Part shown: positions 38,612-49,871 of the stretch, piece after piece | Position numbering within the stretch: the first letter of the stretch is position 1 | Layout of the letters: the number at the start of each line of letters is the position of its first letter | From: Ramicandelaber brevisporus | Taxonomy: Eukaryota > Kickxellomycota > Ramicandelaberales > Ramicandelaberaceae | NCBI GenBank assembly: GCA_025201865.1 | Contig: MU602698.1 | Coordinates: 13,610-77,609 of the forward strand | Reading direction: 5' to 3' | Length of the DNA stretch: 64,000 nucleotides | Program-made: the position numbers and the translations under genes | Notes under the pieces: model-generated | What the model saw: only the letters and a program-made list of their open reading frames with translations | The model's database searches: none | Told to the model about the DNA's origin: nothing

Positions 38612-39341
38612 TAGAGTAGGCAGTATCCTTTTTATTAAACATGATGTGCTCATCCGCCTGGAAACAGTGAAATTTTTAAAGTGGGCTTGCTAATGCCGGG
38701 GCACACACTGTCGGGACGCCAGGGCCGGTCGAGCTAGGAGAGGGGTCAATAAGTGGACATATAGGGATGACGCCAAGCTTTTGCATACTTTCCCCGGTCC
38801 TTTACAACCCGTCTCATATCTAAGCAGAATATGATATAAGACTAACACCGAAACGAGCCAAACCACAGCCAAAAGAAAAAAAAAACATAGCATGGCGACA
38901 GCAACGGGGGAACAGGTGCTGACAGCCAACGCAACCACCTTCACTTGGTGACAACCAACGACCAACGACAGNNNNNNNNNNTAGAGTAGGCAGTATCCTT
39001 TTTATTAAACATGATGTGCTCATCCGCCTGGAAACAGTGAAATTTTTAAAGTGGGCTTGCTAATGCCGGGGCACACACTGTCGGGACGCCAGGGCCGGTC
39101 GAGCTAGGAGAGGGGTCAATAAGTGGACATATAGGGATGACGCCAAGCTTTTGCATACTTTCCCCGGTCCTTTACAACCCGTCTCATATCTAAGCAGAAT
39201 ATGATATAAGACTAACACCGAAACGAGCCAAACCACAGCCAAAAGAAAAAAAAAACATAGCATGGCGACAGCAACGGGGGAACAGGTGCTGACAGCCAAC
39301 GCAACCACCTTCACTTGGTGACAACCAACGACCAACGACAG
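38612..39341. other. Scaffold gap flanked by identical 360 bp sequences
   Basis: Positions 38612-38971 are identical to 38982-39341 (offset 370), with ten Ns at 38972-38981 between them. One contig ends where the next begins again, which is the pattern of unmerged overlapping contig ends. The duplication should not be read as biological. Confidence 0.9.
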
Positions 39342-39433
39342 CAAGCGAGAGGTGGGGGAGAAAGCCAGCGGAGGAGGGGACGAACCAAGAGGGGAGGGGA
39401 CAGATGGAACATGCCGCTGGGAAAACCCGAATG
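38644..39433 (-). repeat. Dispersed ~400 bp repeat, copy B (interrupted by scaffold gap)
   Basis: Reverse-orientation relative of copy A at 19921-20323, sharing the same ordered landmarks and the same CCAGGCGGATGAGCACAT end. The region appears as 790 bp only because 360 bp are duplicated around the 10-N gap. After collapsing the duplicate, the copy is about 420 bp, matching the length of copy A. Confidence 0.75.
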
Positions 39434-39885
39434 GACATTGACGCGGATACAAAGACGCCGAGGAAAAGGTAGATACAATGGAAGACAAAGGTTAGAGGAA
39501 GGGAGAGAGAACGAAACAAAATGATAATGCAGCACGCTCGTCTTCAGCTGCAGAACAGGGTTTATGAGAAGATAGCTGAGACAGACAGCCAGCCACATCC
39601 TCGTATGAAACAATGTTTGAACGTGTACGATTTTAGGCATGAGAAGAAATGTAAACTTAATCAATAAGTAGAGTTATTGAAACAACATAAATCCTATCAT
39701 ATCCTATCCCAAGAGTATTAAGAGCATAGAGTAGTGTCCGTGCTTTTTAAGCATTCTGATTGGTTGGCGATACGACGCACAATTCACCACAGAAAGTCCG
39801 TCTACTACTTTTTTTTGCAACCACAAGTCTACTCACTATGTCTTTCTCTCTTTGTGTCACTCTACACACTTAACTAAAAGGACAT
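39434..39885. other. Gene-free stretch between repeat and Helitron remnant
   Basis: 452 bp with no convincing gene or repeat. It lies between dispersed repeat copy B and the first Helitron-related frame; its relation to either element is unknown. Confidence 0.4.
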
Positions 39886-40044: not shown

Positions 40045-40839
40045 ATGGTTCGTCCATCATCAAATGACTCGCCAGCTGAGAGACGTGCAGCTAACACAGC
40101 ACGGATGCAACGACAGCGTCAGAGTAGGTCACAGGAAGAAATTCGGCGTGACAGTTAGCGTAATGCAAGCTTGAGGCTTGCAGTGCGAACAAGACAAACA
40201 CCAGAAGAACGCCAGGCGGTCAACAGCCTACGACGCTCGGTACGTTTGCAAGAACAACAACAGCGACAGCGACAACAGCAACAACGAGAACAACAACAGC
40301 AGCAGCAGCGACAGGCAGTACGTGACGCGCAGTACGGCCCGCTGTCTGATGAAACCGCGTCCGAGCAGCGCCACAGAACACCAGCTCCCGGCACTCTTTC
40401 CACGAACGTCGATGTCCCCTGGTGGGATAAGCTGGCTGCCACTACCAACAGAATCAGGCCTGTCGTCATCAACTGGGATCAGCAGTGCGATCATTGCGGA
40501 GCTCGCTTCATGACCGGCGAAAACCGAAATGTCTGCTGCAACAATGGGAAGCTGGCCAGTCATGTTGAAGGCCAGGTATCACCAGGCAAAGTCACGAAGC
40601 TGCCACCACTGCCACCTGAGCTGCTGGAGCTGTATAAGAGTAACAGACTTATACGGAACTCCAGCGGACAGACGGAGACACTCGGTTGCTACATGTCACG
40701 CAACTCTCGGGGTGGAACGACGCTGTGCTTGAGACGCTTCCTGGCCAAGTGCATGAACTGTACAGTGTGGACAGTCTGGAGGAGGATGATCGCACGTCGA
40801 CACAAGATGCTCAATCGTTTGCATCATCTGAGTTCTTGA
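40045..40839 (+). pseudogene. Helitron RepHel N-terminal fragment, broken by in-frame stop
   Basis: The frame starting MVRPSSNDSPAERR at 40045 meets TAG at 40156-40158 and continues in the same frame with RLAVRTRQTPEERQ, an Arg/Gln-rich helix and the Helitron N-terminal zinc motif CDHCGARF...NVCCNNGKL followed by KLPPLPPELLELY. Canonical proteins go on to the HUH Rep domain. Here homology stops near LLELYKSN and the frame ends after about 60 unrelated codons. A CAGCGACAG-type microsatellite lies at about 40250-40315. Confidence 0.78.
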
Positions 40840-41357
40840 ATGCTCTGCAAGCACCTGGTATTCCCCGCCACAGACTGTGTCTCAAGCCCAACTGCACGGT
40901 GGTGCTCACCCGCAACCTCAGTATTGCCGAGGGAATCTGCAAGAACAGCCGTGCCATTGTCAAAGAGATCCGTCCCCGGTACATTACCGTTCAAGTGCTG
41001 AGCACCAGCCGATCCGTCCTGATTCCTCGCATTGATTTCCGGTTCGACCTCCCCCATGTTCCAGCCACCATCCGCCGTCGGCAGTTCCCTCTGCGTCTAG
41101 CATATGCATCAACATTCAACTCTGCTCAAGGTCTCACTCTCGACCGCGTCCTCCTCGACTTGCGCATCAAGCCGTTCGGCCACGGACAGCTGTACACTGC
41201 ACTGACACGAGTGCGTCGTCGCAACGATATCCGCATTCTCACTCTGCCTTCCAGCAATGAAGTCGATCCTGCTGCTGCTCTCACTACCACAAATGTGGTG
41301 TATAACCAAAATAGTTATAAAAGCATAATATGGATCTCAACGAATGGAAGTGTCTAG
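40707..41357 (+). pseudogene. Helitron helicase C-terminal fragment
   Basis: This frame encodes the last ~210 residues of a Helitron/Pif1-like helicase: WNDAVLETLPGQ, EFLNALQAPGIPRHRLCLKPN, VVLTRNLSIAEGICKNSRAIV, the RRQFPLRLAYASTFNSAQGLTLDRV block (Pif1 motif V region, with FNSAQG where INKSQG is usual) and GHGQLYTALTRVRRRNDI (motif VI). Walker A and B are absent, so it cannot be an active helicase. It is in a different frame from the N-terminal fragment. Confidence 0.85.
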
Positions 41358-42161: not shown

Positions 42162-44621
42162 ATGCAAGTTTTCTATGTGCTTATCAATGGCAAGAAACGG
42201 CTTGTAAAGCGCTTCTCAACTCTCAAACAAATCACCACCACAGCTTCGAGCGGCGTTATTCGCGTCACAGGCGTGCAAGATACCTTTTCTCTACCTCCAA
42301 AACTCTTTCTTAATCGCAAAGACCGAGTAGCAGCAGTTCCCATCACGAAGCAGGTTGGCAACACCATTTGCACCAACTACCCTGCCGGTGTCCTTACTTT
42401 TCCTCACCTTGAGCACTTTGTACCAGCAGGCACCGCTGATCGCTTGCCATCTCTCGACCAGACTCGCAAGATCCTGAACAAGACAGCCGAGATTGTTCAG
42501 GCTGCCTTTAACAGTGTTAAAGCTGTATGCTCCGATCTTCCACGCTGTCGCGCTTGTTGGCCGTTGTACGGCAAATGGCTCTGCAACCAGCTCCACCAAG
42601 CCATCCGCAAAGCTTGCCCCGACGTTTACATTCCAGATCTAACTGGAGGCAAGTTGTTCGAGTGCAATGACTGCCATCGTTCCAAGTCTGGTTCTGCCGA
42701 TTCCACCAACACTGTCGATACCGCCACTGAGACCGACAACCTCGCCCGCATCTTTGCGGCCGATCCAGGCGCCATCGAGCTATTTGTTGGCAGCTCTAGC
42801 TTTACGCCTCTCTTCTTTGTCCACAGGTTGTATGTTATGTTGGTGAACAAGCTGATGGACGAGCTGATATTTGACGACAAGGCTTTGAAGAAGATGGTAC
42901 TGGAGAATAGGATCCAACATAACAAGCAAGATGATGATGATATGTTGGTTGATGATGATGATGATATTGTTGTTGTTGTTGATGATGATGATGTTGATGA
43001 TGATGATGATGATGATGATGATGCTATTCCAGGTGATTCTCCAGACATTATTAGCACGGCGCAAGCGAGACAAGTGCGGCGCCTCAAGAAACAGCTGGCT
43101 GACTTCCTGTATAGCGGCGGCGTGCACTATTCTCTATCTCGCTCTCGCTGGTGGCTTAAACGAGGCGGCAGGTACAGAGCATTAGCCAAGGAACATGTTA
43201 ACGAGCTTGAACTACAGTTTGTCGAGATGTTTCACGCTGTCGTCGTTCATTATCTTGGGCCTAAAAAGCAACAGCCACATGTCATTGAGGATGCATTGTT
43301 TAACAAACAGAAGCGTGATGAGATCATTCGTGGTATTCTTGGTCGGCGTGGTGAATATGTCAAGTTCTTTGACACCGCAGCCAAGATGTTGCCAGACACA
43401 GTTGATAACAACAACAGCGTCCGAATATTGGTTGAATGGCTAGATTATCTCTTGTGTTATTTTGCAGTAATGGTGGATTGGCAAAATGATGAGATTTACT
43501 CGTGGAATGAGCATCAAAATCAAAGATTCAACCAGGAGAAATCAAGTATTATTCCAACTGTGCTTCGCAATCGTGGTTTAATTTCTTCAGACTGTAAGTT
43601 GGCTGGGCGAATCAACGACTCTGGCTACTGGATGAACCGGTTTGCTGCAAAAATGGTTTGCAATTCTGTTTATGATCGATTCCAGCCTGGTACTCGTGTG
43701 GTCGCGTTTGTTGGCGACGCATTCCATGGCGGTGCCGGTGCCAAGAACGCCGCCTCGATTCTCCGCGAGTCTATCCTTATGGTAGACGTTTGTGAGCATA
43801 ATTCAAGCAAGCTCTGTTTCATCTGCAACAGCGCCACCATTTCGCCAGTTACATTTGCCAACAAGCTTCACCACAGTTCCAGCATGGAGTTTCGCAGCCG
43901 CCTCTCCTACCTAGCCACCAAAACCCGCCAGCAGCAGCGTAGCCGACGTCGCGATCGGCTCTGCTTGAGCTGCAAACGTCTCTACAACCGTGATTTCGGA
44001 GCTTCAATTAACATGGCGCAGATTGCGTTGCACGCAATGTACGTGTCGTTTATGCAGCGCACTCGCAATTACGAAGTCACAGATGACAAGCAGTATTGGC
44101 CACCCGCCTTCCGTCGTGGCCGTTACTATCAGATTGACAAGCGCCTGTTTGCAAGATACAAGCGTAATGTAAAGAAGCGGGAAGCCAAGGCTATCATCAA
44201 GCTGACAACACATGATACACGAAGCGCAGTGACAGCCTCGTTGCAAACTGCTGTCAACACGCAACAGCGGGTTCTGGAGCAATCGACTGCTCAGCTGGTG
44301 AGCGAGAAAAGCAAGATCACGGACTTCTTATCCCGCATCAAGCGTGGTGGTTGGCTCACCTATGGTCAACGTCGCATCCTGGGCATCATCAAGAGCAAGC
44401 TTCATTCAATTGAGAACAAGATCAAGGCCGCAAAGGATCTGATCGAATTGAATGGCCGCAAAATCGAGGCAATCGGCAACACTAAAGGGATCGGTTCGGC
44501 CAAACAAGCAAGCTCCAGTCGTTCAGTGCAGCGAGCCGACAGTGAAGGCGGTCGATATCGCAAATATTCCACACTATTTAGTCTTTTAAAAGATACAAAT
44601 CCACCTCCTTTTAACTTTTAA
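42162..44621 (+). CDS. Fanzor (eukaryotic TnpB-like) putative RNA-guided nuclease
   Basis: 819-residue protein with the C-terminal architecture of Fanzor/TnpB. VVAFVGDAF (Asp519) is followed by the rearranged RuvC-II glutamate in VCEHNSSKLCFIC (Glu545; the family has E-x-x-TSK-x-C-x-x-C), a split four-Cys zinc ribbon (Cys552, 555, 601, 604) and the RuvC-III motif NRDFGASINM (Asp611; NRDxNAxxNI in the family). The post-motif WPPAFRRGRY segment also fits. RuvC-I is unclear: no DPG is seen, and Asp439 in YFAVMVDWQND is the best candidate. Extra features are an N-terminal CRAC...CNDC pair, a poly-Asp insert from a GAT microsatellite, and a ~150-residue C-terminal coiled-coil-like extension. Known Fanzors are guided by an RNA encoded at the gene's 3' side. 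An in-frame Met at 42063 exists but lies in pyrimidine-rich leader. Activity cannot be judged from sequence. Confidence 0.85.
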   Translation: MQVFYVLINGKKRLVKRFSTLKQITTTASSGVIRVTGVQDTFSLPPKLFLNRKDRVAAVPITKQVGNTICTNYPAGVLTFPHLEHFVPAGTADRLPSLDQTRKILNKTAEIVQAAFNSVKAVCSDLPRCRACWPLYGKWLCNQLHQAIRKACPDVYIPDLTGGKLFECNDCHRSKSGSADSTNTVDTATETDNLARIFAADPGAIELFVGSSSFTPLFFVHRLYVMLVNKLMDELIFDDKALKKMVLENRIQHNKQDDDDMLVDDDDDIVVVVDDDDVDDDDDDDDDAIPGDSPDIISTAQARQVRRLKKQLADFLYSGGVHYSLSRSRWWLKRGGRYRALAKEHVNELELQFVEMFHAVVVHYLGPKKQQPHVIEDALFNKQKRDEIIRGILGRRGEYVKFFDTAAKMLPDTVDNNNSVRILVEWLDYLLCYFAVMVDWQNDEIYSWNEHQNQRFNQEKSSIIPTVLRNRGLISSDCKLAGRINDSGYWMNRFAAKMVCNSVYDRFQPGTRVVAFVGDAFHGGAGAKNAASILRESILMVDVCEHNSSKLCFICNSATISPVTFANKLHHSSSMEFRSRLSYLATKTRQQQRSRRRDRLCLSCKRLYNRDFGASINMAQIALHAMYVSFMQRTRNYEVTDDKQYWPPAFRRGRYYQIDKRLFARYKRNVKKREAKAIIKLTTHDTRSAVTASLQTAVNTQQRVLEQSTAQLVSEKSKITDFLSRIKRGGWLTYGQRRILGIIKSKLHSIENKIKAAKDLIELNGRKIEAIGNTKGIGSAKQASSSRSVQRADSEGGRYRKYSTLFSLLKDTNPPPFNF
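42931..43023 (+). repeat. GAT/GTT microsatellite inside the Fanzor gene
   Basis: 93 bp of mostly GAT triplets with a GTT run in the middle. It encodes an Asp-rich stretch broken by Val residues, in the region before the nuclease domain. The frame is kept. Confidence 0.9.
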
Positions 44622-45314
44622 ATACTATGTGCAATCTTTACAACATTTTAGATACGTTCCAATATAATTAAGTATGGGACAATCAGATTGAACATCTCCG
44701 GCGTTAGAGACTCTCAGATTGACGTGTATCGGAATCCCCAATAATGAAACCATAGCTATTCTCATTAATAGATATTAACCTTACCCAAGCGTATTTCCTA
44801 TGGTATAAAAGAGCACGGCTGTGAACAATTAAATAAAAGCCTTCTCTCCTTTCTCGATTCTCTCTCACCAAACCTTCTCCCTGTTTGGTTTCTCTTTCTC
44901 CCCATCTTCTTCTATAACAGTTTTTGAAAATAAATCTCTACAAACTCGTTTTTCGTGTCGAGCAACCGCTGGTCTGATCCACCTGTCGCAGCTGGCGTTA
45001 ACACCCCCTTTCTTGTCTCTCTCTTCATCCCTTTCGTTATCATTTTTAATACTCGTCTTGTTTCCCTCAAAGACACCTGTGCCTCCCCGCTAGAACCGCT
45101 GCCCCGCTCTGCCAGTTGACAACGGCGTTTCATCTGTTATGTCCCCATTCTTTTTCGCTTAATTCATCAACATCTTCACTCACTTTCTTATCTTCCCCTA
45201 TAAGTAAAAGACTTTTTCTCAAACAAGCATTAACCGCCGCCACAGTCTTTCAGCATCGACAACATTTCTTTTTGCAAAATTTAAATTTAAATATGAAGAG
45301 TCAAAGAATTAGAA
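44622..45314. other. Downstream region of Fanzor, candidate guide-RNA interval
   Basis: 693 bp between the Fanzor stop and the stop of the opposing 639-residue gene, with no supportable protein gene. CAGATTGA occurs twice, 29 bp apart (about 44686-44723), a TATAAAAG lies at 44804-44811, and a pyrimidine-rich run follows. By analogy with known Fanzor/TnpB loci, the 3' side is where a guide RNA would be encoded; this is inference only. Confidence 0.4.
44804..44811 (+). promoter_or_regulatory. TATA-like box downstream of Fanzor
   Basis: TATAAAAG on the plus strand, 183 bp after the Fanzor stop and followed by a pyrimidine-rich stretch as in leaders of other genes here. No plus-strand gene follows before 47.2 kb, so it may drive a non-coding transcript or be a chance match. 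Confidence 0.35.
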
Positions 45315-47234
45315 TTATTTTTTAGCAACTTTTCTTTCCTGAGCCTTGACTTTACTTTTGATCTTCGCCGTTCTCATTAGCTTACTCTGTTCACTTACAC
45401 TAGCCTTGTCTTCTTTCATTGCACTCGACATCGCCGCTTTCTTGGCATCAGCTGCCACCTTCAGCTCGGCCTTCGTCGTGACAACCTCCTTGGCAGCATC
45501 CACAGCAGCAGTGTAGCTTTCAACGCTGTCCTGAGTGGGCTTGGCAGAGCCGAGCTTCTTCTTGAGTTGAGTCTGCAGCTTGACCAGCTTCTTCTCGGCA
45601 TCTGTCAATTCACCAGCGGCTGATTTAGCTGCTTGTTTGACTTCATGCAGTATGTCTGTACTCACACCAGTCAGTGATAGAGACGCGCTCTCGATGTTCT
45701 GGAGGCAATGAGGTAGTAGTGGATGATGACACCACAGCTGTTTCACAGAGTTATCACCAAAAGACTCGCGCATTGTGAAGATTGCATCGATGCTGTCATA
45801 GCTATTAATGCCCAGTTCAATGCGTTCATCAATACAATCATAGCCAGGCTGCAGTCCATTTCCTTTGCGGAGTCCAACAATAATGCTAGCACGAAGATGT
45901 AAGAGAACACGACGTGCCAGCAGCCAAGTGTCACCAGGCTTGGAATTCGTTTTAACAGAGCTGTTGGAGTAATTAACAACTTCGTCAAAAATAGCAGAGC
46001 CAATGATACTCTTGACCAGCGTGAACGCAGCGATTATCGCCTTGTTCAAATCGTCCTCATTGTCAACAGTTTTGGTGGATTCACTGCCAAGGTACTTTGA
46101 TTGCCAAACTTTGTCGACAGCGTGTGAGATTTTTGATTGAGAATACTTGTCATCGGACACTAATATCACTAACACTTTCGCAAATCCAATCACATCTTTC
46201 TTTATGTTATCCAATAGTTTATCGTTACCCAAATGGACTTTGGTATTCGCTTGCATTGTTGTGCTGATGCTGTTTAAGATGGCTAGTCGCATAGTGCCAC
46301 TGTGTTTGGAATGATTCGCAATTGTGCGTTCATACAAAGCGCTCCAATCCATGCCTGCTTTCTCTAATAATGAATTAATGAACGACTCATGCTGGACCGG
46401 ATCACCGTGCTCACGTTCACCAAATTCTTTGATACCAAAATTCAGGCCAAAACCGTGGAGCAGAGCCATTGCAGCCACTCGTCGGAAGGTTGTATGGAGC
46501 GCGTCAATGTTATCGGTTGCTTCTTTGAGATGATCCACAGTTTCCTCGGGTGCACTGCGCTTGGTTCCAGCAGTGATAGAAGAGCCTCCAGATTCGCGTA
46601 AACATTTTTTCAATTCCACAGATGCGACACTTGTTGGTTTGAGTAAGTTGGAAATCAGCTGATCAAACTTTTGTTTGCCAGTAATTGCTCCACCTGCTTT
46701 AGTGTTGGTTTCACCAAGCAACATCCACAGCACATTGTTCAACTCCACAAAAAAATAACTGCCATCCATGAACTCAATCAAACTAACATCATATTTCGGC
46801 TGTGGCAGAGGTGCAACATTGTCGCTGCTGAAAGGAAGAATGGTACCAGCTGAACTCTTTGCCATTGACTTCGCGTTCTTTGGTAATAAACTGATGGCAT
46901 CAATCATGGGATGTGGTTCAAAGAGAGCAGCCAACATTAATTTGCACAAAAGGTCAAGGAAACCTGAGCTGATTTTCGACTTAACCGACTGCGTCTCTAT
47001 CACTGCGGCATCAATAACAGACATGTCGTCATCGCTCTTTATGTCATCCTTGCTGACGGCTACTGTTGAGTATCTACCAAACACTCCGTGATTCTCTTGG
47101 ATCAAAGCCAATCCACGCTGCATTTCTTCCAAACCCGGAACCATCTCTCCACGCTCAATCGGTTTGCCGCTCGAATTGGCGGTGGTCGAGGTGGTGGCAG
47201 TTGTAGCACGAGGCGGCATTGAGTTACGCGGCAT
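45315..47234 (-). CDS. Hypothetical protein, 639 residues, in the mobile island
   Basis: A long uninterrupted frame that I cannot place in a family. Residues 1-30 are Thr/Ala/Ser-rich. The middle is predicted mostly helical with no catalytic motif that I recognise (segments FLDLLCKLMLAALFEPHPMIDAI, DVSLIEFMDGSYFFVELNNVLWMLLG shown only in part, and VIGFAKVLVILVSDD). The last ~110 residues are Lys/Ala-rich and probably coiled coil (KKLVKLQTQLKKKLGSAK, then many KAELK/AKIKSK repeats), ending basic. It converges on the Fanzor gene from the other strand, and the 1.47 kb TIR transposon lies upstream. It may be a lineage-specific or element-borne gene. Confidence 0.6.
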   Translation of the reverse strand: MPRNSMPPRATTATTSTTANSSGKPIERGEMVPGLEEMQRGLALIQENHGVFGRYSTVAVSKDDIKSDDDMSVIDAAVIETQSVKSKISSGFLDLLCKLMLAALFEPHPMIDAISLLPKNAKSMAKSSAGTILPFSSDNVAPLPQPKYDVSLIEFMDGSYFFVELNNVLWMLLGETNTKAGGAITGKQKFDQLISNLLKPTSVASVELKKCLRESGGSSITAGTKRSAPEETVDHLKEATDNIDALHTTFRRVAAMALLHGFGLNFGIKEFGEREHGDPVQHESFINSLLEKAGMDWSALYERTIANHSKHSGTMRLAILNSISTTMQANTKVHLGNDKLLDNIKKDVIGFAKVLVILVSDDKYSQSKISHAVDKVWQSKYLGSESTKTVDNEDDLNKAIIAAFTLVKSIIGSAIFDEVVNYSNSSVKTNSKPGDTWLLARRVLLHLRASIIVGLRKGNGLQPGYDCIDERIELGINSYDSIDAIFTMRESFGDNSVKQLWCHHPLLPHCLQNIESASLSLTGVSTDILHEVKQAAKSAAGELTDAEKKLVKLQTQLKKKLGSAKPTQDSVESYTAAVDAAKEVVTTKAELKVAADAKKAAMSSAMKEDKASVSEQSKLMRTAKIKSKVKAQERKVAKK

Positions 47235-47606: not shown

Positions 47607-47614
47607 TTTTTTAA
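47607..47614. repeat. Target-site duplication, left copy
   Basis: TTTTTTAA directly before the left inverted repeat; the identical octamer follows the right inverted repeat at 49082-49089. Confidence 0.8.
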
Positions 47615-49081
47615 GGGAGACCGTCGTTGCACCCCGAATTGCACCCCGCTGGTACTTGAAAAATATTTTATTTTAATATTTCTCCCACAGAGAGTGCAGC
47701 GCACAGGCTTGCAGCAAAAGAAACAACACATCATCTCTGACAATAAACACAAAGCAAATAACGGAGCAGACAATCACAGACTATGACCCTATGGTTGTTC
47801 AGTAACTGAAAGAGCAGTGTCGACGTGTTTTCGCAGGCGGTAGTCTGCCCTCATCTCGCCAGCTTCATACAGCACAACTGCCTATCTGACGACTGCTTCA
47901 ACTGTGGTGGCACCATTGCACTGTGCTCTGATAGCAGCTCCCCGTGAAGCTAGTCCTGTGGTGGACTGTGTTCATGCTCACCTAACCACGTTCACATCGA
48001 CCAGGCAGAGTGTAGCCTGACGGCTCATGCCCTTGGTTGGCGGCCTGCTGCTAATCAGTGTTAAATGCTTAAATGACTTTAAAGATAGTGTGATAGTAGG
48101 TTAAAAGGTATAGATTGAGAGCTAGTCTGTGTCCATGGCATCGGAATCATCATCGCCGTCGCCGTTGTCATCATCATTATCATCATCATCATCGCCACCG
48201 TTGCCGTCGTTGTCGTCGTCGTTGTCGTCGTCTTCTTTTTCTTCTTGTTCAACATCTTGTTCCTTGTCTAGACGGTGGCGTTTGAAGCCTTTCCCTTTGC
48301 CTTTGCCTGAGCCAGGTTGGCGGCCGGGCTTTCTCTTCACCCCATGCAGGCTAGGTTTGCCGCAGCTGCCAGTACACTCCGCCAGCCCACAGTTCCGCAT
48401 ATTGTGCCCGGTTTGGTGGCACTTGCTGCACGTGGTCGTTCTTCCGCTCTTGATTGCCTTCTCAGCAACAGCGCCGTGATGTGAGTCGGCCTTCTTGGCA
48501 GGCTTGTGTGCACCTTTGTGTGGACGTCCAGGCCCCTTGATTTGTGCTGGCACGATATCCATGCTCAGATGCAACATTGTCTACAGGTTGTGCTGCTGGC
48601 TGCTGACGAGGACCATTAATCTGGTCGAAGAGAAACATGTATTCCTCCACCTTCGCTGTATCAAGCGGCTGGGCGTTGCCATAGGCTGCAAGAAGGCTTG
48701 ACAAGATATCGCGCATCTTAGTGTGTTGATGATTCAGTTTCTTGATGCATACAACCGCATAAGATACCTTCTCGCCAAATGATGAATCCAGCTGTGTAAG
48801 CTGCCCTGTAGCCAGTGGACTGAAAAGCTCACGTATCTGCTCAAGAAGCTCAAACAAGCGGAGTGCGCTGGTCGCCATTGATGTGTGGACGTAAGTCAGT
48901 TCGGGGATAGAGCTGTTACAGGCAGTGATATTAAAACAATGAAGTGGTGAAAGTGGCGAGTAGGAGTAATTTTGGGTCAAAAGTCAGAAGGGGACGTTAT
49001 TGTCTCCCTTGGGAAAAAATTAAAATATAATATTTTTCAAGCACCAGCGGGGTGCAATTCGGGGTGCAACGACGGTCTCCC
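47615..49081. mobile_element. 1.47 kb DNA transposon with ~71 bp TIRs and 8 bp TSD
   Basis: The ends are inverted copies beginning GGGAGACCGTCGTTGCACCC: the left arm is about 47615-47686 and the right arm about 49011-49081. The first 39 positions are identical and only a few mismatches plus one indel occur afterwards. TTTTTTAA flanks both ends exactly (47607-47614 and 49082-49089), an 8 bp target-site duplication. Each arm contains TTGCACCCCG twice. Long TIRs with an 8 bp TSD fit MULE, hAT or KDZ-type elements; no transposase core is seen, so it is probably non-autonomous. It carries a broken zinc-knuckle gene on the minus strand. Confidence 0.9.
48122..48878 (-). pseudogene. Frameshifted zinc-knuckle gene inside the TIR transposon
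   Basis: Two overlapping minus-strand frames appear to be halves of one gene. The first (from the Met at 48878, MATSALRLFELLEQIRELF) is a helical domain that runs to about 48580 and then loses sense. The second frame (from about 48577) encodes an AT-hook-like KGPGRPHKGAHKPAKK, a CCHC zinc knuckle CSKCHQTGHNMRNC, a basic patch and a long Asp-rich tail. The AT-hook plus zinc-knuckle order is common at the C-terminus of MULE-type transposases and related proteins. A single frameshift near 48577 would explain the split; programmed shifting is an alternative. Confidence 0.6.
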
Positions 49082-49118
49082 TTTTTTAAAACAAATACTT
49101 AATTACACATTTAATAGT

Positions 49119-49871
49119 TTACTTTACTCTTTGTCTCTTTGGGGCCGGTACTGTCTGGGAGTTAGCCTCCTTCTCTGTGACTGTTGAGGCTGTAGCTGTG
49201 TCCTTGATTGTGGATGTGGTCGAGATTTTATTCTCCAGCCATATCTCCAGCTCACAAGCGTGGTTTTGAAAAGACTCGCGATGAGCAGTAATGGCATTCT
49301 TGCAGCGGGTCAAGTCTTCTTTCAAGCCCATTCTTGTCATAATAAAATGTCCAAGTGCGTAATGTGATGTCGTTAGGAACTGTTCAACTTCCTGCAGAAC
49401 TTCAATAGCCACTTTATTCTTTGGTGTGAGTGGCACAATATAAACAGCCTCACATTTACCAAATCCCAACAACCAGTTGTACTTTCTATGAAGTTTATCA
49501 ATATTCTTCCGGCAATCATTCAGCGATGTAAGCCTCCACAGCATGTCAGCATCAATGCCCTTGTATCTCGACTGAGCATCCTCTTTGTTGTTGTTGTCGC
49601 TGTCAATATCCATGTCGCTATTGTCACTGCTCTTCTTCTTCTGCTTATTCTTCCTTTGGTTATCCCACTTGGTGACTTTCTTCTGCAGATAGAACTCCAA
49701 ACGTGCTTCTTCCGGTATCGTCTCTTTCAGACGCTCATCAACCCATAACAGTATCCACAGTGTCTCCATGAATATCTGAATCACATACTTGCCGGTTTGA
49801 AGCGAATCTTCACTTTCGTTAGCTCTGTGGCTAGCTGGAGTTGAAGCTGGTTCCGTGCTGAGCGTGTCCAT
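49119..49871 (-). CDS. Hypothetical protein, 250 residues
   Basis: Uninterrupted frame of unknown function whose stop is 30 bp from the transposon's right TSD. It starts with an STPASTPAS-type Ser/Thr region, then an amphipathic or hydrophobic helix (IQIFMETLWILLWVDERL), a Lys/Asp/Asn-rich low-complexity insert, and a helical C-terminal half (IDKLHRKYNWLLGFGKCEAVYIVPL, here quoted in part, and VLQEVEQFLTTSHYALGHFIM). It ends with a basic PKRQRVK that could be a nuclear localisation signal. No family recognised. Confidence 0.5.
   Translation of the reverse strand: MDTLSTEPASTPASHRANESEDSLQTGKYVIQIFMETLWILLWVDERLKETIPEEARLEFYLQKKVTKWDNQRKNKQKKKSSDNSDMDIDSDNNNKEDAQSRYKGIDADMLWRLTSLNDCRKNIDKLHRKYNWLLGFGKCEAVYIVPLTPKNKVAIEVLQEVEQFLTTSHYALGHFIMTRMGLKEDLTRCKNAITAHRESFQNHACELEIWLENKISTTSTIKDTATASTVTEKEANSQTVPAPKRQRVK

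Follow-up and report, generated by a model that had tools for sequence, protein, structure and literature searches.

Fanzors are among the few RNA-guided DNA nucleases known in eukaryotes. The comparison made here draws on PMC10711439, PMC3627910, PMC10432273, and PMC11423790. Fewer than 1% of TnpB-family homologues combine a DPG motif with a glutamate placed six residues ahead of the zinc finger, a pairing termed the Fanzor molecular fingerprint; in TnpB, the D and the G at RuvC-I are typically separated by a hydrophobic residue, and the canonical glutamate lies approximately 50 residues before the zinc finger (PMC10711439). Two spacings are published, namely D-x(125,275)-[TS][TS] (PMC3627910) and the Fanzor search pattern CxxC-x(12,18)-CxxC (PMC10711439). 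Fanzor1 genes are described as being carried by DNA transposons of the Helitron, Mariner, IS4-like, Sola, and MuDR types (PMC3627910). Here, a 64,000-nucleotide stretch of DNA from the fungus Ramicandelaber brevisporus (Kickxellomycota), referred to as the window, was analyzed together with the genome in which it lies (G000; 510 contigs totaling 17,887,837 bases, of which the window is C32:13610-77609). One open reading frame (ORF) of the window quite probably encodes a divergent Fanzor-like nuclease of the TnpB superfamily whose D-E-D RuvC site and zinc ribbon are intact, and does so within a mobile element that also carries a convergent partner gene. We propose that the nuclease and its partner constitute a two-gene mobile element.

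The nuclease frame, as listed, opens at TTG 42063, and the ATG at 42162 was taken as its start (Table 1). The original prediction claimed a Fanzor/TnpB signature at the C-terminus, and the residues named were found: E545 within E-x-x-SSK-x-CxxC, the zinc-ribbon cysteines C552, C555, C601, and C604, and NRDFGASINM as RuvC-III. The RuvC-I aspartate, D201, was not among the residues listed at that time. With D201-P-G and E545-x6-C552, the window protein carries both parts of the fingerprint, and its C4 ribbon is followed by RD (R610-D611). It therefore resembles Fanzor1 and Fanzor2 (SpuFz1, GtFz1, PpFz) in the DPG motif, the rearranged RuvC-II glutamate (Ealt) six residues before a C4 ribbon, the RD, and the eukaryotic host. 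Its C-terminal TNB zinc ribbon, RuvC-III, and weak PF07282 match are likenesses to bacterial TnpB and Cas12f, whereas DPG, Ealt, and a length double that of a 408-aa TnpB chain in the PDB set it apart from bacterial TnpB.

In an alignment of the window protein with five paralogues (C453, C185, C54, C38, and C7), D201, E545, both CxxC pairs, and the NRD position are conserved, as is a G-[DE]-x-F-x-G block at residues 518-523. RuvC-III reads DRD in C7 and NRD in the window protein, and RuvC-I reads DPG in the window protein, C453, and C7 and DAG in the C185 type. The first CxxC of a possible N-terminal zinc finger (C129/C132) is common to the C453, C185, and C7 lineages; by eye, the second pair is apparently His in C185 and C7. 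Catalytic and zinc residues are retained among paralogues at only 19-41% identity. This retention is the stronger argument when set against shuffling of the tail motif E-x6-CxxC-x(10,60)-CxxC-x(4,8)-RD, which was composed after the protein had been seen and is supportive rather than independent. The motif arose in 0 of 100,000 shuffles of the window protein and, among 786 frames of at least 100 aa from the window and the genome loci, which overlap one another, was confined to members of the nuclease family. The C7 and C69 members are not matched because a long insert separates their CxxC pairs.

Comparison with described families points in the same direction. A profile match, the check suggested in the original prediction, was obtained for both the window protein and its core, each below threshold. 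The whole window protein scored 17.8 bits (E = 0.0037) against PF07282 (Cas12f1-like TNB; curated cut-off 26.3 bits), and all five scanned paralogues, complete or in pieces, gave 16.8-21.8 bits, likewise under the cut-off, making six of six. Core segments matched in five of five cases, that of the window protein reaching 23.0 bits (E = 9.1e-5). When the PDB was searched with a profile of the full family (A3), an AI-designed RNA-guided nuclease, two TnpBs, and Cas12m occupied ranks 1-4 (E = 0.03-0.43), and five of the seven rows, ranks 1-5, were an RNA-guided nuclease, TnpB, Cas12, or "Transposase" (best E = 0.03). For the core profile (A5) the corresponding figure was seven of ten rows, TranC included (best E = 0.12). 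The proteins P0002, P0003, and P0004 are identical to the translations of C185, C54, and C38. P0002 gave weak matches to guided_TnpB (NCBIfam, E = 0.002), phrog_506 transposase (E = 0.0019), and Cas12u4 (PADLOC, E = 0.0021), none of which was reproduced by the window protein. The structural comparison foreseen in the original prediction was made with a model of low confidence: the AlphaFold model of the window protein (nine sequences) had a mean predicted local distance difference test score (pLDDT) of 50.7. In a Foldseek search of the PDB with this model, PpFz (9cf0_P) was at rank 1 (E = 0.11, probability 0.69, template modeling score 0.11-0.12), Cas12f at rank 2 (E = 0.27), Cas12X fourth, and Cas12-2 fifth, with no match at E = 0.001 or better. 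Against BFVD, rank 1 was a Homavirus "Transposase" (E = 0.012). Such predicted-fold matches lend weak support to the Fanzor reading.

A number of results weigh against this assignment. No comparison reaches a curated cut-off, and a PF07282 search of the whole genome gave C54 alone (23.8 bits, below the cut-off) and not the window gene. Haemoglobins were at ranks 2 and 3 of the A5 list, none of the ten rows obtained from the PDB with profile A1 was relevant, and nothing relevant was returned from the PDB for the single window sequence. For the window protein, the NCBIfam scan gave one unrelated row only, PHROGs one row of unknown function, and PADLOC no match. Both AlphaFold models are poor, the mean pLDDT for P0002 being 50.5, and for the latter model PpFz was found just at rank 8 (E = 1.6). 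No guide RNA signal was found in the window, where Rfam gave 0 matches. The ends of the element were not found around the window pair, where the two stretches compared yielded two direct 13-of-16 matches and otherwise simple sequence rich in CA. Finally, the distance from D201 to S548 is 346 residues, beyond the 125-275 given in PMC3627910, and 45 residues separate the CxxC pairs of the zinc ribbon, beyond the 12-18 of the search pattern in PMC10711439. Asp runs encoded by a GAT/GTT microsatellite account for part of the excess spacing. Because these two spacings are out of the published range, the protein is classed as a divergent Fanzor-like variant, neither Fanzor1 nor Fanzor2. It differs from both in the longer D201-E545 gap (343 residues) and CxxC gap, in the additional N-terminal CxxC pair, Asp runs, and convergent partner of no recognized family, and in that no guide RNA was located at the window locus and the sequence searches made here gave no named Fanzor; for the low-confidence window model, PpFz is the first-ranked PDB match. 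The claim of Fanzor/TnpB identity thus came through narrowly, with a profile hit under its cut-off and a fold of low confidence. It is nevertheless the best-supported reading, and the protein is assigned to the TnpB/Fanzor superfamily because the comparisons agree, though none convinces alone.

The original prediction set the gene between a dead Helitron and a terminal inverted repeat (TIR) transposon. Both elements are real, but the partner ORF, situated between nuclease and TIR element, was overlooked, and it is the more telling neighbor. Searched against G000, the window partner retrieved, besides itself, C7:68309-68944 (-), with E = 4.4e-7, and C61:18980-19615 (+), with E = 1.7e-4. Each of these two faces a Fanzor-like gene tail-to-tail, C7:65608-68082 (+) and C61:23713-24414 (-), respectively. 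The stop codons of the C7 pair lie 61 bp from each other, and at C61 an N gap (C61:19748-23715) separates the genes, so that direct contact is not visible there. When the C7 partner (1246 aa) served as the query, the matches were C7, C61, the window, and a degenerate stretch of C70 interrupted by four stops; on C70 the genome searches for nuclease relatives reported no Fanzor-like match. Three of the four partner loci, i.e. all three that are readable (C32, C7, and C61), are therefore tail-to-tail with a Fanzor-like gene. Viewed from the nuclease loci, the partner is present at these three, with a candidate at C38; none was seen at C185, C54, or C69 (C485 duplicates C185), and its presence is undecidable at C453, where the contig stops 178 bp past the ORF, C304, and C398. 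The similarity joins window residues 310-510 to C7 residues 982-1192, with approximately 23% identity between the lineages. The C7 partner probably carries a PHD finger, as judged from PF00628 (18.5 bits; cut-off 24) and PHD chains in the PDB (E = 0.02-0.04). For the window partner no family of note was found in Pfam, NCBIfam, PHROGs, and PADLOC scans, and no transposase family was matched by the partner ORFs in Pfam, NCBIfam, or PHROGs. No report of the partner was found; among the literature covered, no search was aimed at the partner itself.

An ORF tail-to-tail with the C38 nuclease (C38P; L014:4812-6869) is similar to the partner by eye. As a partner from a third lineage it is a candidate only and not significant (BLASTP among five sequences, E = 0.01; hhalign E = 0.028), its hmmsearch score being 0.5 bits compared with shuffle scores of up to 6.7 (2000 shuffles, 1109 scored). 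Between C7 and C61, synonymous divergence is 0.18 in the nuclease part (235 codons) and 0.56 in the partner part (568 codons), a hint that the nuclease half has recombined or been replaced.

It could be argued that the partner is a chance neighbor, or an unrelated gene brought along by segmental duplication. C7 and C61 are related copies, so that the linkage covers two independent lineages only. The N gap at C61, the three nuclease loci at which no partner was seen, and the unequal divergence of partner (0.56) and nuclease (0.18) also fit such a view. However, the three readable partners are all tail-to-tail with a Fanzor-like gene despite their low identity between lineages, and the only further match is the degenerate C70 piece. 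Coincidence or duplication is regarded as rather unlikely, while retaining some weight.

Eleven Fanzor-like loci were found in G000: C32 (the window), C453, C304, C185, C485, C54, C38, C7, C69, C61, and C398. The nearest relative, C453, has 39% identity and one in-frame TGA. The C304 copy comprises the first 112 aa alone, C485 is a 99.8% duplicate of C185 across 5.2 kb that ends with its contig, and the copies at C61 and C398 are interrupted by N gaps. The latter two had been considered as giant fusion ORFs, an interpretation that was rejected, the apparent fusions being assembly gaps of N. P0005 and P0006 are absent from the genome loci examined, which indicates that additional copies exist in public records. 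In the protein database, the full-length window protein retrieved the query alone among a maximum of 8000 candidates, a limit attributed to its Asp-rich words, residues 425-660 the query alone among 300 candidates, and alignment A1 five R. brevisporus proteins among the matches listed; relatives in the database are annotated "hypothetical protein GQ42DRAFT_..." (Ramicandelaber brevisporus). A single pattern scan of viral contigs gave 53 pattern matches, 0 of which were confirmed. The ratio of nonsynonymous to synonymous divergence (dN/dS, Nei-Gojobori) is 0.24 for C185/C54, 0.21 for C185/C38, and 0.20 for C54/C38, then 0.39 for C7/C69, 0.45 for C7/C61, and 0.77 for C61/C69; for the C7 and C61 partners (C7P/C61P) it is 0.19. 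Purifying selection is observed in most nuclease pairs compared, hardly so in C61/C69.

The C7-type element is mobile. C7, C61, and C398 have one sharp left end in common; the nuclease frame follows approximately 840 bp downstream of it, and on its outer side the flanks are unrelated. Six copies of the C7-type leader (query included) start at base 1 or 2, three of which (C7:28555, C275, and C83) end at base 381-417 and do not include the nuclease; in the four leader copies read, the outer flanks are again unrelated. The short left-end copies resemble the "ghost" loci described for S. punctatus in PMC10432273. A Fanzor-like gene inside a mobile element, with short gene-less left-end copies, also recalls the transposon-borne Fanzor1 genes of PMC3627910; the differences are that the partner here has no transposase match and that the C7-type partner has a probable PHD finger. 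The 19-20 bp preceding the left end read GGGCAAATCC(G/T)YTTGGGYY at C275, C61, and C398, though not at C7. This could mean either that the true end lies 20 bp farther out or that these are insertions into a common target motif. In the window, a similar pattern, with as many as 3 mismatches allowed, turns up 3 times against a mean of 0.20 expected, with none at the gene. At C61, each gene has a 65-bp block (77%) upstream of it, the two blocks being inverted relative to each other; no counterpart turned up on the partner side of C7, and the window matches were CA repeats only. On the partner side, the similarity of C7 and C61 ends just ahead of the partner start. The C185 and C38 copies are alike up to an abrupt right end approximately 235 bp beyond the nuclease stop, C54 diverging sooner.

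The window gene itself might be immobile, that is, a single-copy domesticated or decaying relic derived from a Fanzor, whose fold has another role or none. It is the sole full-length member of its subfamily found in G000, the nearest copies being the TGA-bearing C453 and the 112-aa C304 piece, and the two stretches beside the pair gave no terminal repeats besides CA-rich simple sequence. Nevertheless, every catalytic and zinc residue is intact, dN/dS compared with C304 is 0.07 (110 codons, N-terminus only), and the related subfamilies are multi-copy, with the C7 type mobile. A relic is considered unlikely.

Table 1. Positions of the nuclease, its partner, and neighboring features (window coordinates unless a contig is given)
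Feature	Position	Strand	Remarks
Fanzor-like nuclease ORF, 819 aa, single frame	42162..44621	+	ATG 42162, stop 44621
RuvC-I catalytic Asp, D201 in DPG (AADPG)	42762..42764	+	6-sequence alignment
Rearranged RuvC-II Glu (Ealt), E545 in CEHNSSK	43794..43796	+	six residues ahead of zinc ribbon
Zinc ribbon CxxC no. 1, C552/C555	43815..43826	+	
Zinc ribbon CxxC no. 2, C601/C604	43962..43973	+	
RuvC-III Asp, D611 in NRD (NRDFGASINM)	43992..43994	+	NRD = 609-611
Possible N-terminal zinc finger, C129/C132 and C168/C171	42546..42674	+	putative zinc binding
GAT/GTT microsatellite encoding Asp runs	42930..43025	+	absent from aligned paralogues
Stretch in common with shortened copy on C304	42081..42505	+	96% aa identity over residues 1-112
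Partner ORF, 639 aa, no recognized family	45315..47234	-	convergent with nuclease
693-bp interval between convergent stop codons	44622..45314	.	no structured RNA detected in 44580-44968
Left-end motif sites	C275:2982 (L064), C61:25354 (L051), C398:5776 (L052)		3/4 insertions read
Broken Helitron-type C-terminal Pif1-like helicase remnant, two overlapping frames	40171..41357	+	Pif1 2B; UvrD_C_2 below cut-off
Non-autonomous TIR element, 1.47 kb, 81-nt TIRs (90%), AAGGGAGACCGTCGTTGCACCCC...	47613..49083	.	

Regarding the two flanking elements, the nuclease may alternatively be a passenger, i.e. cargo of the adjoining Helitron or TIR element, as has been reported of other Fanzor1 genes. The helicase remnant (PF21530, 34.6 bits; cut-off 23.9) stops 0.8 kb before the nuclease gene, which the TIR element follows at a distance of 3.0 kb, Helitron-borne Fanzor1 genes are known from PMC3627910, and a high-copy repeat near the Helitron remnant also adjoins the C453 and C304 relatives. 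However, among the best 40 of 159 candidates, to which the copies of both Helitron and repeat are confined here, the Helitron copies on C8 and C172 terminate at window 41305, before the nuclease, and the four Helitron contigs (C8, C172, C208, and C323) yielded no Fanzor-like gene. Furthermore, the TIR element lies wholly outside the gene pair. Both elements show no evidence of a link to the nuclease, and carriage by one of them is judged improbable. Weaker still is the notion of a convergent zinc-ribbon protein with a RuvC-like motif order arisen by chance: the scores below curated cut-offs, the poor models, and the failure of profile A1 to find a nuclease would suit it, but Pfam, two PDB profiles, Foldseek, and the NCBIfam, PHROGs, and PADLOC matches of P0002 indicate the same superfamily and the same residues are retained in lineages approximately 20% identical, so that it can hardly be entertained.

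The high-copy repeat occurs at window 39000-39510 and 20319-19237 (-) and at a minimum of 36 further places in G000, within the same best 40 of 159. It stops short of the ATG by 54 bp at the C453 nuclease and by 78 bp at the C304 fragment, lies approximately 200-400 bp upstream of the C7 and C61 partners, and has one occurrence near the C275 left-end copy. An identical 360 bases flank a 10-N gap at window 38612-38971 and 38982-39341, probably an assembly duplication, and a similar 1.95-kb duplication surrounds a 10-N gap at locus L013. On the far side of the TIR element, window 49119-49871 (-) holds a 250-aa ORF without a recognized family, with relatives on C338 (55%) and C3 (27%).

For the proposed two-gene element, a most likely mode of action can be outlined. 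We infer that the nuclease would bind a non-coding RNA transcribed from the element. Bound to this RNA, it would locate a matching DNA site beside a short motif and cut it, and a filled copy in the same cell could then template repair of the cut, by which the element would be kept or spread. RNA folding of seven 3' stretches gave a z-score of -2.33 for C185 and of -0.60 to +0.47 for three window stretches, which covered 44580-44968 of the intergenic interval. At C7, the 61-bp gap from stop to stop would, from its geometry, make impossible a guide read outward through a right end that directly follows the nuclease. If the element comprises both genes, the guide of that lineage would need to arise elsewhere. 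As a tentative possibility, this early-diverging fungus may harbor a two-gene element in which a deeply divergent Fanzor-like nuclease is joined tail-to-tail by a partner of a new family, with a conserved C-terminal domain and, in one lineage, a PHD finger, acting as a transposase or as a chromatin or target adaptor.

No joint mention of Ramicandelaber with Fanzor, or with transposable elements, was found in the open-access papers covered, supplementary tables being outside their scope; the 2023 Fanzor surveys may list such proteins there. A divergent, multi-lineage Fanzor-like set in a kickxellomycete would widen the known diversity of Fanzors. The 61-bp gap at C7 represents a testable exception to the rule of a right-end guide. 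Moreover, the linked partner could reveal how a eukaryotic element unites mobility machinery of its own with an RNA-guided nuclease.

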